Source: Kaistia dalseonensis (GTDB taxonomy: Bacteria > Pseudomonadota > Alphaproteobacteria > Rhizobiales > Kaistiaceae). From it: a DNA stretch of 64,000 nt. The stretch covers positions 124,001 to 188,000 of the forward strand of contig NZ_JAUSVO010000003.1 of assembly GCF_030814715.1 (NCBI RefSeq), given 5' to 3'. Within the stretch, counting starts at the first letter, position 1; every line of letters starts with the position of its first letter. The notes beneath the pieces are model-generated. The model was not told the origin of the DNA. It did no database searches and was given only the letters and a program-made list of their open reading frames with translations. Both the position numbers and the translations under genes were made by a program. Shown in pieces: positions 44,590 to 64,000 of the stretch.

Positions 44590-45322
44590 GATCGTGCTTT
44601 CCCCCACCAGCGCCTTCGCCGGCATCCCGCGCGGCCGCAGCGGACAGACGGACGGCCCGCCGGGGGTCATCGCGAGCGAGCGCACCGATCTGGCTATGGC
44701 GACAATCATCGCCCGCAAAGGCCAATCCGCCGCGCTCCGCGACACCGTGCGCGAAATCTATGGCCTGAAGCTGCCGATCCGCCCGACTTGGGTTGGGAAT
44801 GACGAACTCGCCTTCCTCTGGTCCGGCCCCGACCAATGGCTCGCCCTCGCCACCGGCACAATCGGCCCCCTCTCCCCCTTGCGGGAGAGGGTTGGGGTGA
44901 GGGCCTTCGCTTCCTTTGAAGACGCCGCCAGCGAAACGACAGCAAGCAAGGCCCTCACCCCACCCTTTCCCACAAGAGGGAGAGGGAGTCCGGCTGGTGG
45001 CTTTGTCGATATCGAGACCGAACTGCGCGAGTCGATCGGCGCCTTCGCCGCGATCTCCGCGCAAGGCGACGGCCGGGCCGTGCTGCGCCTCTCCGGCCCG
45101 AATGTCCACGATACGCTCGCCAAGGGCCTGCCCATCGATCTGCACGAAAGCGCGTTCAAGCCCGGCGATGTGGCGATCACGCAGATCGCCCATATCGGCG
45201 TCACGATCCGTCAGATCGACTCCTCACCGACCTACGAGATCATCCTCGCCCGCTCGCTCAGCCTGAGCTTCTGGTCATGGCTCGTCGCCTCGTCCGGCGA
45301 GTTCGGCCTCGATTTCACGTGA
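44582..45322 (+). CDS. mgdD: N-methylglutamate dehydrogenase subunit D (sarcosine oxidase gamma-like) with in-frame repeat insertion
   Basis: 246 aa from a GTG at 44582 that overlaps the mgdC stop. N-terminal GSGTRFGL-like parts (SERTDLAMATIIARKGQ) and GPDQWLALATG near 83-93 belong to the SoxG family; the family resumes at VDIETELRESIGAF near 141 and runs to SSGEFGLDFT. Between them, residues of about 95-138 (PLSPLRERVGV...PFPTRGRGS) are encoded by a palindromic repeat (44868-44986) and are not family sequence. Without it the protein would be near 200 aa, closer to usual SoxG size. The frame stays open, so the subunit may still be made. Its 3' end overlaps that of the convergent SDR gene. Confidence 0.85.
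   Translation: MAEIVLSPTSAFAGIPRGRSGQTDGPPGVIASERTDLAMATIIARKGQSAALRDTVREIYGLKLPIRPTWVGNDELAFLWSGPDQWLALATGTIGPLSPLRERVGVRAFASFEDAASETTASKALTPPFPTRGRGSPAGGFVDIETELRESIGAFAAISAQGDGRAVLRLSGPNVHDTLAKGLPIDLHESAFKPGDVAITQIAHIGVTIRQIDSSPTYEIILARSLSLSFWSWLVASSGEFGLDFT
44868..44986. repeat. Palindromic repeat inserted in the mgdD coding sequence
   Basis: Arms 44868-44907 and 44948-44986 are inverted repeats with about 90% match over 39 bp, around a 40-bp centre. Arms begin CCCTCTCCC and end GGGGTGAGGGCCTT, resembling repeat family A in composition and hairpin layout but with a different sequence. The element is read through in frame. Confidence 0.88.
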
Positions 45323-59955: not shown

Positions 59956-61392
59956 TCAAGAGCGAGGCGCAGCCGTGGCGCTTTCGCGGCGGCGATGCTT
60001 GCTCACGATGGCTCCGGCATCGTGCGGCAGCGCAAAACTGTCGACGAGCCCCAGGATCGCCACGCCGCCGATAATCAGGAAGGCGGTGTGGAAGTCGGAG
60101 AGCGTCAGCGTCGCCGTTTCGGTCGTCGCGAACATGTCGGACAGGCGCAGCGCGATCGCACCGAGCGCAATGCCGAGGCCGAAGGTGATCTGCTGCACCA
60201 GGCTGAACAGCGTATTGGCGCCGGCCATCTTCTCCTGCGGAATATCGACGAAGGCGATGGTGTTGATCGCCGTATATTGCATCGACCGCGCCGCGCCGGA
60301 GAGGACGAACACGACAACGAGGATCGCGGGCGGGGTCTCCGGCGTCAGGAAGGCGCAGGCGAACATGGTCAGGATGAAGAAGATGCCATTGCCGATCAGC
60401 GTCGTGCGGAAGCCGAAGGTCCTGAGGACCCAGCTCGTGCCTGGCTTCATGCCGAGATTGCCGGCAAAGAGCGCCAGCACATAGAGGCCGGCCTGGAACG
60501 GATCGAGCCCGAAGCCGATCTGCAGCATCAGCGGCAGCAGGAAGGGCACGGCGCTGACGGCGGTGCGGAAGAGCGATCCGCCCCTCATCGTCACGGCGAA
60601 GGTCTGCACCGAGAGGCCCCAGAGATCGGGCATCGGATGGGCGTGGTGGCGCGAATGGCGCAAGGCGGCCCAGCCGAACACCACGCTCGCCGCGAGGATG
60701 CCGGCCCCGACCAGCCATTTCGTCTCCGTCTGCCCGACCAGGTCGAGGCCGTACATCAGCCCGGCGCAGGCAAGGCTCGTCAGCACGAAGCCGATCCAGT
60801 CGAAGGTCGGGCGCATGAGGCTGCGATCGTTAGGGATCAGCCAGAAGGAAAGCGCCAGCGCCGCGATGCCGAGCGGCAGGTTCAGGAGAAAGATCCAGTG
60901 CCAAGAGGCATAGGTGGTGATGAAGCCGCCGAGCGGGGGCCCTAGGATCGGGGCGGAGAGAGCCGGCCAGGTCAGCGTCGCAATGGCGCGCATCAGCTCG
61001 GCCTTGCTCGTGTTGCGCAGCACGACCAGCCGGCCGACCGGCACCATCATCGCGCCGGCTGCGCCCTGCAGGATGCGCGCGAGCGTGAAGGAGACGAGGC
61101 CTTCGCTGATCGCGCAGAGGAGCGAGGCGAGCGTGAAGATCGCGACGGCGGTGGCAAACACCGTCCGCGCGCCGAAACGGTCGGCCACCCAGCCGCTGGC
61201 CGGAATGAAGATCGCGAGCGTCAGCATATAGGCCGACATGCCGACATTCATGTCGACGGCCGAAACGCCGAAGGAATGCGCCATTTGCGGCAGGGCGGTC
61301 GCGATCACCGTGCCGTCGAGGTTCTCCATGAAGAAGGCACCGGCGACGAGATAGGCGATCCAGTTCGATTTACGCGCGTCTGAAAGGGTCAT
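59956..61392 (-). CDS. MFS exporter, DHA2/EmrB-like
   Basis: 478 aa from the ATG at 61392; in-frame sequence upstream runs through palindromic repeats and is not coding. About 14 membrane helices. The first helix has NLDGTVIATALPQMAHSFG near 24-42, the usual DHA2 motif D1, followed by GWVADRFGARTVF near 75-87 (motif A) and motif C GPPLGGFITTY near 145. Drug or metabolite exporter of unknown substrate. Composition and codon use match its neighbours. Confidence 0.87.
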   Translation of the reverse strand: MTLSDARKSNWIAYLVAGAFFMENLDGTVIATALPQMAHSFGVSAVDMNVGMSAYMLTLAIFIPASGWVADRFGARTVFATAVAIFTLASLLCAISEGLVSFTLARILQGAAGAMMVPVGRLVVLRNTSKAELMRAIATLTWPALSAPILGPPLGGFITTYASWHWIFLLNLPLGIAALALSFWLIPNDRSLMRPTFDWIGFVLTSLACAGLMYGLDLVGQTETKWLVGAGILAASVVFGWAALRHSRHHAHPMPDLWGLSVQTFAVTMRGGSLFRTAVSAVPFLLPLMLQIGFGLDPFQAGLYVLALFAGNLGMKPGTSWVLRTFGFRTTLIGNGIFFILTMFACAFLTPETPPAILVVVFVLSGAARSMQYTAINTIAFVDIPQEKMAGANTLFSLVQQITFGLGIALGAIALRLSDMFATTETATLTLSDFHTAFLIIGGVAILGLVDSFALPHDAGAIVSKHRRRESATAAPRS

Positions 61393-61595
61393 GCCGGGGA
61401 ATATTCTGGTGGGCCTCGACCTCTCATCGCGCGTTCCCCGCCGCAGGACAAGGAAATCATCATCAAGGGAGTGTTGCCAAGCGGGAAAGGATCGGGCGGA
61501 TGGTGGGAGATGTGGGGGCCGCGCGGGAGGGCAGTTTGGCAGAGGGGCACGGCCACGCTGGACCAGATATGACGGCGGGGCAGCGGCTCCGCTTA

Positions 61596-61783
61596 ACCCG
61601 CCCCCGGAGGGCGGGTCGAAAGTGCGGAGCACTTTCGGGGCGGGGGTAGCTTCGGCCCTTGCCGAAGCGTGCTTGGCGGTTGGTGTCGGCGGATGTCGGA
61701 TAGGACAGGGGACGGCCCGATCAACGCGCCCCCTCCCCAAAACCGCTTCGCGGTTTTGACCCTCCCTCAGGGGGAGGGTTTGG
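61596..61783. repeat. Five-hairpin 188-bp repeat family C, copy 1
   Basis: Five consecutive palindromes: ACCCGCCC/GGGCGGGT (61596-61616), CGAAAGTGC/GCACTTTCG (61617-61637), GCTTCGGC/GCCGAAGC (61649-61668), AAAACCGC/GCGGTTTT (61739-61757) and CCCTCCC/GGGAGGG (61760-61778). Direct copy at 62255-62442 with four differences. The last five codons and the stop of the DUF559 gene lie inside the fifth hairpin. Region 61393-61595 before it holds no recognised gene. Confidence 0.92.
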
Positions 61784-62147
61784 GCCGGCGCTGGCGGGCC
61801 AACTCCGCTAGGACGGCCCAGACGCCGTCCATGTTCTGCACGATATCGCGATTGGTGAAGCGAAGCACCTGATAGCCTTGCGCCTGCAGCCAGGCCGTGC
61901 GGCGCGCGTCGGCGGCCACGGCTTCGTCGTCGAAATGCTGGCCACCATCGGTCTCGACGATCAATCGCAGTTCCGCACAGAAGAAATCGACGATGAAGGG
62001 ACCGATCGGCACCTGCCGGCGAAACTTGAAGCCACGCAGTTTCTGACGGCGCAGATGCATCCAGAGATGGAGTTCCGCCTCCGTCATGGCCTTGCGCATC
62101 GATTTCGCAAAACCACGCAAGCGCGGCTCGACCTCGCGTCGCGGCAT
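61767..62147 (-). CDS. DUF559 protein, VSR-like PD-(D/E)XK endonuclease fold
   Basis: 126 aa. DUF559 pattern: AKSMRKAMTEAELHLWMHLR near 14-33, FKFRRQVPIGPFIVDFFCAELRLIVETDGGQH (about 40-71; seen as FIVDFFC and LIVETDGGQH), then RTAWLQAQGYQVLRFTNRDI. The Asp in VDFFC and Glu/Asp in ETDG are the likely metal-binding residues of a very-short-patch-repair-like nuclease. Start ATG at 62147 with GGGG upstream. The C-terminus (RRPKPSP) is encoded by the edge of the five-hairpin repeat. It sits exactly between two direct copies of that repeat, in the manner of a repeat-associated nuclease. Confidence 0.87.
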   Translation of the reverse strand: MPRREVEPRLRGFAKSMRKAMTEAELHLWMHLRRQKLRGFKFRRQVPIGPFIVDFFCAELRLIVETDGGQHFDDEAVAADARRTAWLQAQGYQVLRFTNRDIVQNMDGVWAVLAELARQRRPKPSP

Positions 62148-62254
62148 GATGACCCCAATACCTGTCTCTGACGCCGATCATTCGACAGGCACAAGTTGTC
62201 GTAAAGCGCGATCACGAGCCAGCGGTCGATTCTTGTAGGATGAGGCGCCGTCAA

Positions 62255-62442
62255 ACCCGCCCCTGGAGGGCGGGTCGAAAGTGCGCAGCACTTTCGGGGC
62301 GGGGGTAGCTTCGGCCCTTGCCGAAGCGTGCTTGGCGGTTGGTGTCGGCGGATGTCGGATAGGACAGGGGACAGCCCGATCAACGCGCCCCCTCCCCAAA
62401 ACCGCTTTGCGGTTTTGACCCTCCCTCAGGGGGAGGGTTTGG
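62255..62442. repeat. Five-hairpin 188-bp repeat family C, copy 2
   Basis: Same length and order of five palindromes as the copy at 61596. The four differences fall in three hairpin loops and one unpaired spacer, and no stem base is changed. It lies 659 bp from copy 1 in the same orientation, beyond the DUF559 start. No gene overlaps it. Confidence 0.92.
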
Positions 62443-62559
62443 ATCGAGCTTGGGGTGACGCTTGTGGTCCAACATCTGAGCCGTCATGCCCGCATTATTG
62501 TCGGCATCCACGTCTTGCTTGCGATCGTGGTGCGCCGGGCCCCTGTCAGGAAGGTGTGG

Positions 62560-62582
62560 ATGGCCGGGACAAGCCCGGCCAT
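62560..62582. repeat. Small palindrome, same type as at 12126
   Basis: ATGGCCGGG (62560-62568) and CCCGGCCAT (62574-62582) around acaag. Typical dispersed REP-like unit in a 624-bp non-coding stretch (62148-62771) that is mostly repeats. Confidence 0.65.
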
Positions 62583-62617
62583 GACGGTTCGAGCGACCCG
62601 CCCAACCCGGCCACAGG

Positions 62618-62729
62618 CCGTCATCCCGGGCGGAGCGAAGCGGAGACCCGGGATCCATCCAGCCTGAGCGGTTCTTGCCTGTCACAACCGAGGCCTCGGC
62701 TGAGGTCCCCGCTTTCGCGGGGATGACGG
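62618..62729. repeat. Palindromic repeat family B, copy 2
   Basis: Ends CCGTCATCCC (62618-62627) and GGGATGACGG (62720-62729) match the copy between mgsB and mgsC. Shares the inner CCCGGGC..ACCCGGGA and CCCCGCtttcGCGGGG hairpins; the centre differs. Confidence 0.85.
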
Positions 62730-62771
62730 CACGGGATGGGGAAGACGGCGCGTCATCGGCCAGCCGCGCCG

Positions 62772-64000
62772 TCAGCCCGGCGCGCGCTTCGAGGGCGTCG
62801 CCCTGGGCGTGAACGCAAAATCCGCGTCGAACGGGAAGACGGGCCGCGTGCGCCGCACATTGGCGATGCGGGGAATGTCCTGGTCGACCACGCCTTCCGA
62901 CAGCGCCATCAGGTTCGGATTGGCGAGTGGTGCGAGTTCCGGCGAGAGATAGCCGGACTTGACGACGACGAGATCGAAATCGCCCGGATGGAAACCGAAC
63001 TTGGTGAAGTCGGCAATGTCGTGGAACGGGCGCCGGCGCGCGGTCAGGATGATGGTCGCATCCCCTGCCCGCACCACGGCCTCGCGCCGGGCCGGCTCCG
63101 CAACGTCGAGCAGGACGGCGACCTCCGCCACTACGCTGACCGGCGTGCTCGACGGGTCGAGCGTCGCGCCGATCGAAAGCGTGACCGTGGCCCCGACGCC
63201 GGCAGCATAGGCAGCCTCCGTCGCGGGCGCGTCGGTGATGCCGGCAAAGACCGCCTTGCCGTGGCTCGCGCCTCGCGCAAGGACGGCGCCGAGCACGTCG
63301 GCCCGGTCGCCGACGCCGCCGCCGGTCGGGTTATCGCCCGATTCGGCGAAGATGACGGGCTTGGTGCCCGCCTCGGCGGCCCAGTCGAGGCATTCCTCGA
63401 TCGAGCCGGTCTTCGGCCCGAAGACGAAATCGTTCCGCGCCTCCCAACAGGCCGCGGCGAGCTTTACCGCCTCGGCGGCGAGCACGGCCCGGTCCGTGCC
63501 GGTCATGATGATCGAGGCGGTGGCGCGTGGCTCGTCGGCCCAGACATAGCCGACCATGATCGAGGCATCGAGCACGCCGGGCACGGCATCGACTTCCGGC
63601 AGGCGCGCATAGAGCGATTTCGCCGGCTCGTCGACCGTGCTGGTCCGCTCGCCCGGCAGCAACACAGGCACCTTGGCCCAGACCACGAAGGGCCTGACAT
63701 CGGTGGTGAGGCGCTGATGGAGCAGCGCCAGTGCTCGCCGCTTGGTCTCGGTGACGTCGATATGCGGCGCGGTGCGATAGGCGGAGAACATGTCGATCGC
63801 GTCGATGACGCGCTCGCTCACATTGCCGTGCAGGTCGTAGCTCGTCGAGATCGGACATTCATCGCCGACGATCGCCCGCGCGGCGGCGATCCAGTCGCCC
63901 TCGGCATCGTCCATGCCCTCGACATTCATCGCGCCATGCATGGCGAGATAGAGCCCGTCGATCGGCAGGCTCGCCTGCAGGCGGTCGAGAAACTCCGCCT
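62772..64000 (-). CDS. M81-family metallopeptidase (MlrC-like), 5' end cut by window edge
   Basis: At least 409 aa; the frame stays open to position 64000 (in-frame residues ...LPIDGLYLAMHGAMNVEG), so the true start lies outside and any ATG inside, such as 63941, is internal. The MlrC N-terminal domain shows YLAMHGAMNVEGMDD and CPISTSYDLHGNVSE with His ligands, then YRTAPHIDVTETKRRA; the C-terminal MlrC domain has FAESGDNPTGGGVGD and FDLVVVKSGYLSPEL. Family members cleave linear microcystin or act on other small substrates; the natural role here is unknown. Confidence 0.87.
   Translation of the reverse strand, partial: AEFLDRLQASLPIDGLYLAMHGAMNVEGMDDAEGDWIAAARAIVGDECPISTSYDLHGNVSERVIDAIDMFSAYRTAPHIDVTETKRRALALLHQRLTTDVRPFVVWAKVPVLLPGERTSTVDEPAKSLYARLPEVDAVPGVLDASIMVGYVWADEPRATASIIMTGTDRAVLAAEAVKLAAACWEARNDFVFGPKTGSIEECLDWAAEAGTKPVIFAESGDNPTGGGVGDRADVLGAVLARGASHGKAVFAGITDAPATEAAYAAGVGATVTLSIGATLDPSSTPVSVVAEVAVLLDVAEPARREAVVRAGDATIILTARRRPFHDIADFTKFGFHPGDFDLVVVKSGYLSPELAPLANPNLMALSEGVVDQDIPRIANVRRTRPVFPFDADFAFTPRATPSKRAPG

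Follow-up and report, generated by a model that had tools for sequence, protein, structure and literature searches.

DUF559 nuclease-family genes and their flanking palindromic repeats: a possible nuclease–REP partnership in Kaistia and other bacteria

REP elements are common bacterial repeats. An enzyme family, the RAYTs, is tied to them in passages of PMC3116915, which describe several repeat types per genome, each gene lying beside its own type, and call RAYTs single-copy. Two large REP superfamilies bear a GTAG or a CGTC tag, according to part of PMC3733652, and Br-REP1/2 of Bradyrhizobium are palindromic repeats from Alphaproteobacteria (PMC5082802, in part). DUF559 proteins appear elsewhere in the literature: excerpts of PMC12907096 propose T:G mismatch repair, tied to a cytosine methylase, for the Caulobacter protein VsrA (CCNA_02930), and one DUF559 gene is assigned to the EDxHD homing family in a portion of PMC9403480. 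No report linking DUF559 to REPs was found by title and start of abstract among the matches listed in the open PMC literature.

The locus described here lies in a 64-kb window (the whole stretch of DNA analysed, 64,000 nucleotides from Kaistia dalseonensis). It resembles the REP/REPIN–RAYT systems outlined in passages of PMC3116915 in its inverted palindromic units, predicted hairpin and clover folds and many dispersed copies, and, as with RAYTs, the enzyme gene sits beside its own repeat type in genomes holding several types. Unlike in RAYT systems, the enzyme is a DUF559 (PF04480) protein and not a Y1/HUH one, and RAYT (PF01797) was found in 0 of the 14 genus genomes searched. The units also differ from RAYT-linked REPs in being pyrimidine/purine-rich hairpins with a purine tail, and, unlike the RAYTs called single-copy in that source, the DUF559 gene can occupy two sites per genome. 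In its sequence profile and its invariant E, D, ExDG and H residues the protein resembles the EDxHD/Vsr-like nucleases (3r3p, 3hrl and Vsr 1cw0), from which it differs as a single short domain flanked by REPs. It shares the DUF559 domain with VsrA, whose proposed role in mismatch repair with a cytosine methylase sets that protein apart (PMC12907096, in part). The window repeat and Br-REP1/2 are both alphaproteobacterial palindromes with different consensus sequences, and a search for words beginning with "nuclease" gave none in PMC5082802. The best reading of the locus would be an analogue of RAYT–REP in which a Vsr/EDxHD-like nuclease takes the place of the Y1 transposase. The association of DUF559 genes with repeats suggests that the two are partners in a way so far unrecognised, which may serve to spread or maintain the repeats.

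The window cassette and its predicted nuclease

The features of the cassette are as follows.

61595..61783, + strand: REPIN-like repeat copy 1, two inverted REP units (h1-h2-tail ... tail-h2-h1) with a central hairpin
61596..61616, + strand: copy 1 hairpin 1 (h1 left)
61617..61637, + strand: copy 1 hairpin 2 (h2 left)
61649..61668, + strand: copy 1 hairpin 3 (centre)
61738..61758, + strand: copy 1 hairpin 4 (h2 right)
61759..61779, + strand: copy 1 hairpin 5 (h1 right), holding the DUF559 stop codon
61767..62147, - strand: DUF559 (PF04480) nuclease-family gene, 126 aa, profile match E 5.4e-38
62254..62442, + strand: REPIN-like repeat copy 2, 4 differences from copy 1
62255..62275, + strand: copy 2 hairpin 1
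62276..62296, + strand: copy 2 hairpin 2
62297..62305, + strand: copy 2 left G-rich tail, centre base matching the h1 arm; the tails pair in the predicted clover fold
62308..62327, + strand: copy 2 hairpin 3
62387..62396, + strand: copy 2 right C-rich tail, pairing with the left tail in the predicted clover fold
62397..62417, + strand: copy 2 hairpin 4
62418..62438, + strand: copy 2 hairpin 5

The original prediction, of two direct repeats 659 bp apart around one DUF559 gene, is borne out, with a core of 189 bp in each copy and 659 bp between their starts. The five palindromes it placed in each repeat are present, and, as it held, the four differences between the cores fall in three hairpin loops and one unpaired spacer, with none in a stem; a 199-bp frame contains eight differences, the extra four lying within its first 10 bp. 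Hairpin five had been said to contain the last five codons and the stop. At 61759-61779 it encloses the stop and, whole, three codons before it (P, S, P) rather than five; the fifth-last codon straddles the end of the copy 1 repeat.

The two ends of the repeat are inverted copies of one unit, composed of hairpin h1, hairpin h2 and a purine-rich tail, and isolated units elsewhere in the same genome match both ends, on opposite strands, by BLAST. The 5.18-Mb genome contains 48 BLAST matches to the repeat, a count that includes partial matches and matches of one place on both strands; 18 of the 48 are near full length, nine at 90-100% identity and nine at 71-76%. Substitutions among the nine close copies number 22 over 20 loop columns, 6 over 84 stem columns and 40 over 85 other columns, so that loop changes far exceed stem changes, as was expected if structure is under selection. 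Across 23 aligned copies from this and related genomes, 98.9% of stem cells pair, a figure that 0 of 500 shuffles equalled. Nine pairs and 39 cells in these stems are altered on both sides, and such compensatory changes support the predicted stems; additional pair types were no more numerous than usual (146/500 shuffles). Folded as single-strand DNA, copy 2 is predicted to form a clover with its two tails paired (z -6.5), and folding copy 1 with RNA parameters favoured one long hairpin (z -5.8). An Rfam scan of 60500-63500 matched no family. Judged on its sequence, the repeat is a dispersed, multi-copy palindromic element, a doublet of inverted units with the predicted capacity to fold as a hairpin or clover.

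The gene is one of four DUF559 genes in its genome. The family profile matches the structures 3hrl (E 3.7e-33) and 3r3p (E 1.5e-4), the latter a mobile-intron protein that we take to be the I-Bth0305I domain, and matches Vsr 1cw0 weakly (E 0.79). Residues E25, D54, E65, D67, H71 and D80 are invariant across 16 aligned relatives and are probably catalytic. With its family profile match and these conserved acidic and His residues, the protein is a predicted nuclease of the DUF559/EDxHD-Vsr-like kind. Of 26 within-clade pairs, 25 have a dN/dS of 0.08-0.29 and one is saturated; dS is high in many, and the low ratios suggest purifying selection on DUF559 genes. The profile search also brought up Cholera/LT B-subunit chains (E 0.03-0.15), which were taken as noise, and a defence-system reading was rejected because the PADLOC matches were weak (E 0.0004 and 0.0009).

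Repeats beside DUF559 genes across genomes

For each gene, the 400 bp upstream were compared with the 400 bp downstream by blastn (E<=1e-5), the start being the start codon nearest the domain and the last 75 ORF bases outside the domain being included. Three sets were used: 21 stand-alone genes from 14 genus genomes, excluding 4 hits in long fusion proteins; 79 loci from 120 genomes of the order (84 minus 5 too short), excluding the window's own genome and weak or fragment hits; and 31 named loci from multiple phyla (32 minus 1 too short), including a few genes with broken frames and one locus, L044 of Kaistia defluvii, that duplicates a genus locus (same protein as L088 of G003). Both flanks shared a repeat at 17/21 genus, 48/79 order and 21/31 named loci. 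The named set divides into 10/14 positives in Mesorhizobium and 11/17 in other taxa, among them, by record titles, Nitrospira, Chloroflexi, Phycisphaerales, Planctomycetaceae, Bacteroidales and Myxococcales. As controls, DUF1330 genes of the order sample (30 loci, one too short; not a mobile gene) gave 0/29, and far flanks, 600-1000 bp out, gave 0/21, 0/76 and 0/29 in the three DUF559 sets and 0/28 at DUF1330 loci. In a phylum-level draw of 24 new loci, the test was positive for 2/6 from the order itself, 3/6 from the class's other orders and 6/12 from beyond the class, giving 9/18 outside the order, with 0/23 far flanks positive. Among ten named plasmid-collection records, hand-chosen among the matches listed (44 records had hits), three passed the flank test and seven had at least one REP-like unit nearby; these loci include a Deinococcus pair at 98%.

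A second scan, for pyrimidine-rich hairpins of at least 8 pairs within 300 bp of the gene, found REP-like hairpins at 18/21 genus, 69/79 order and 24/29 named DUF559 genes, against 0/29 controls, and on both sides of the gene at 10, 39 and 18 loci, respectively. No REP-like hairpin occurred in 95.7 kb of DUF1330 loci. The 64-kb window itself has three such sites, two of them within the repeat-gene cassette. The remaining pyrimidine-rich hairpin, at 44868-44891, has the tail GGGTGAGGG; the genome's four DUF559 genes all lie elsewhere.

Where oriented units occur on both flanks, they are inverted in 44 of 53 loci (9/9, 21/28 and 14/16). Flanking by a cognate inverted REP is RAYT-like behaviour, and the sequences indicate that DUF559 genes display it. 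The stop codon lies within the flanking repeat at 17 of the 86 flanked loci, an overlap that the original prediction had set as a test. At L081, L089 and L090, the repeat encodes the DUF559 C-terminus (e.g. ...SPLPEGEVDGEAGG), and REP sequence thus becomes protein. An E. coli DUF559 gene (L298, NZ_OL790696.1) ends, just after 1860, in CCCTCTCCCTGAAAGAGCGAGGGGG, apparently a decayed REP that encloses the stop.

The relation between REP type and DUF559 subfamily was measured on cross-genus pairs of 65 flanked genus and order loci, with orthologous sites shared between genera kept in; because whole-ORF C-termini can be REP-encoded, the comparison was limited to the domain. Mean domain similarity was 0.504, 0.474, 0.473 and 0.473 for the 10, 25, 50 and 100 most REP-similar pairs, against 0.436, 0.429, 0.438 and 0.439 when REPs were permuted between the DUF559 loci within each genome (possible for 46 loci in 17 genomes), and 0 of 2000 shuffles reached the observed value at any of the four cut-offs. 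When every cross-genus pair is counted, REP and protein similarity show a weak rank correlation (0.07; equalled in 75/1000 full and 185/1000 same-genome shuffles), indicating that the match is close-range. Each DUF559 subfamily thus tends, on this comparison, to go with its own repeat type.

Repeat and gene also co-occur. One common REP hairpin, written as the pattern CTCTCCCN{3,12}GGGAGAG, was counted in the 120 order genomes, and three or more copies were found in 34/42 genomes with a full DUF559 gene, 5/12 with weak or broken genes only and 9/66 with none (full versus none, Mann-Whitney p 1e-11; rho 0.61). The comparison within families gave just 11 up and 4 down, and the reversed pattern averaged 0.1-0.5 per genome. 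Eight of the 42 genomes with a full gene have fewer than three copies, and some of these carry another REP type, e.g. G019 (L121). DUF559 hits with internal stops occur at G085:C4:353065-353371 and G088:C1:1201521-1201694, in two of the 12 genomes with weak or broken genes only; these two keep 34 and 11 pattern REPs.

Occupied sites, empty sites and repeats without a gene

The window cassette recurs in its own genome at C4, beside ispG, in a gap-free alignment of 848 bp at 97.3% identity, rising to 98.7% in the part that the repeats enclose. On its left, 300 bp have no similarity to the C4 region, and the right flank is similar in pieces. More repeat-like stretches lie to the right of the cassette, at 62443-62742, resembling sequence beside the C4 cassette.

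Both sites are found without the insert in other species of the genus, as the original prediction would have it. By eye, the ispG site holds a same-clade DUF559 gene, followed by a conserved gene, in G003, G004 and G006 as well; in G001, G008 and G013 ispG is joined to the conserved gene, REP and DUF559 both being absent; in G010 a single REP is present and the DUF559 gene is not; and the other six genus genomes have different ispG neighbours. The window site is empty in G009 and G012, where an M81 peptidase gene is followed by an MFS transporter gene (77% and 76% identical) and both REP and DUF559 are missing between them. The neighbour at that site is a different one in G005 and G011, and a close M81 copy is lacking from the remaining nine genomes. 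At these sites REP and gene are present or absent together, and the five empty sites (three ispG, two M81-MFS) suggest that REPs arrive with or after the gene. By eye, no target duplication is clear at the ispG site, and the right border in the window is blurred by other repeats; neither a cut site nor a target duplication was found in the loci compared.

Repeats unlinked to DUF559 had been named as evidence against a partnership. The link proved general across genomes, yet some genomes hold many repeats without a matching gene. Type-A repeats are numerous without clade-A DUF559 in G007 (34 matches) and G010 (36). Type-B repeats, with 23-92 matches in 10 of the 14 genus genomes, are numerous without a type-B-flanked DUF559 in G001 (81), G003 (77), G008 (67) and G011 (37), rough counts with at most 40 candidates per genome scored and clades assigned by eye. 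One type-B REPIN of 128 bp keeps 97% identity between species (L089; G001, G006 and G010); in G001 it matches the query at 97%, yet no type-B-flanked DUF559 was found there. REPs can therefore persist, and perhaps spread, without the matching gene.

How gene and repeat might be linked

We propose, with a probability of roughly 0.58, that gene and repeats belong together as a single REP/REPIN-type system of nuclease and repeat, in which the nuclease would nick REP DNA and host repair would spread the REPIN. The proposal draws on the flank enrichment over controls, the inverted pairs, the subfamily match, the co-occurrence, the empty sites and the lack of RAYT, together with the two-site cassette, the low within-clade dN/dS, the invariant acidic and His residues and the similarity to a mobile-intron protein. 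We infer that the DUF559 protein cuts REP DNA and that such cutting causes spread. First, REP DNA would become single-stranded or extrude as a hairpin or clover. Second, a DUF559 enzyme dedicated to its own REP type would nick at or near the folded or single-stranded REP. Host repair or recombination would then copy the REPIN to another site and, occasionally, the gene between two REPINs would be copied along.

Through such a system, DUF559, a large family of previously unassigned function that is non-homologous to RAYT, would gain a role and a REP superfamily of its own, and the REPs of genomes without RAYT would have an explanation. Repeat spread could also be tested in vitro, a protein of 126 residues and a DNA of some 50 bp being enough. 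A broader version, somewhat less probable than an even chance, is that DUF559 as a whole is a second class of REP-mobilising PD-(D/E)XK enzymes, found in several phyla with a REP for each subfamily and accounting for much C/G-rich palindromic content; if true, DUF559 REPs would explain much of that content in alphaproteobacterial and other genomes.

The closest rival to nicking is homing into REPs, by a free-standing homing nuclease that cuts alleles lacking the gene, with REPs serving as target and homology arms and spreading otherwise. The profile match to 3r3p, the EDxHD homing-family assignment noted above (PMC9403480, in part), the near-identical direct REPINs on both sides of the window gene, the presence of the cassette at two sites and the lone REP at the ispG site of G010 would all fit. 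Against it, the five empty sites carry no REP. Flanking units are also mostly inverted, not the halves of one split target, and repeat matches in the window's genome far exceed its genes (48 against 4). We consider homing unlikely.

We give still less weight to the idea that REP-rich intergenic regions tolerate insertions and that DUF559 genes just accumulate there as passengers. Genomes rich in REPs without DUF559 do exist, other repeats also adjoin the window cassette, and REP-like units also turn up at other places in the genus, whose M81 and ispG loci gave 34 calls over 150.9 kb (both strands, ispG-site REPs included), so the background is not zero. An accumulation of this sort sits poorly with the control genes (0/29) and far flanks (0/126), with a match between REP type and subfamily that exceeds same-genome shuffling and with order-wide co-occurrence. 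DUF1330 is non-mobile and was drawn from the order and not the genus, so this comparison weakens the passenger account and does not close it.

Slightly less probable again is a host function, in which a Vsr-like mismatch nuclease is kept for repair and the REPs act on expression or protect the transcript. The Caulobacter VsrA work (PMC12907096, in part) and the purifying selection on DUF559 genes lean this way, as do several genes with apparently the same neighbours, by eye, in different genus members. A host gene of this kind is hard to reconcile with patchy presence (a full copy in 42/120 genomes) with several paralogues in many genomes and with a REP type that varies with subfamily, and a role in expression leaves dispersed REPs that track gene presence unexplained. 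An unseen transposase (RAYT or IS) that spreads the repeats, with DUF559 incidental, is very improbable: in some genomes REPs do persist without a matching DUF559, but PF01797 is in 0/14 genus genomes, and flanking enrichment and subfamily matching speak against it.

A minor point concerns the tail of the unit as a possible copy of a hairpin arm, which appears clear in type A. Of 46 units there, 45 could be scored, and in 43 of these the tail's centre base agrees with the h1 arm. A crude scan for the likeness gave a weak signal (26/162 versus 2/157), and oriented units gave a modest one, with 6.58 of 9 positions matching against a shuffled mean of 6.30 (highest shuffle 6.38).
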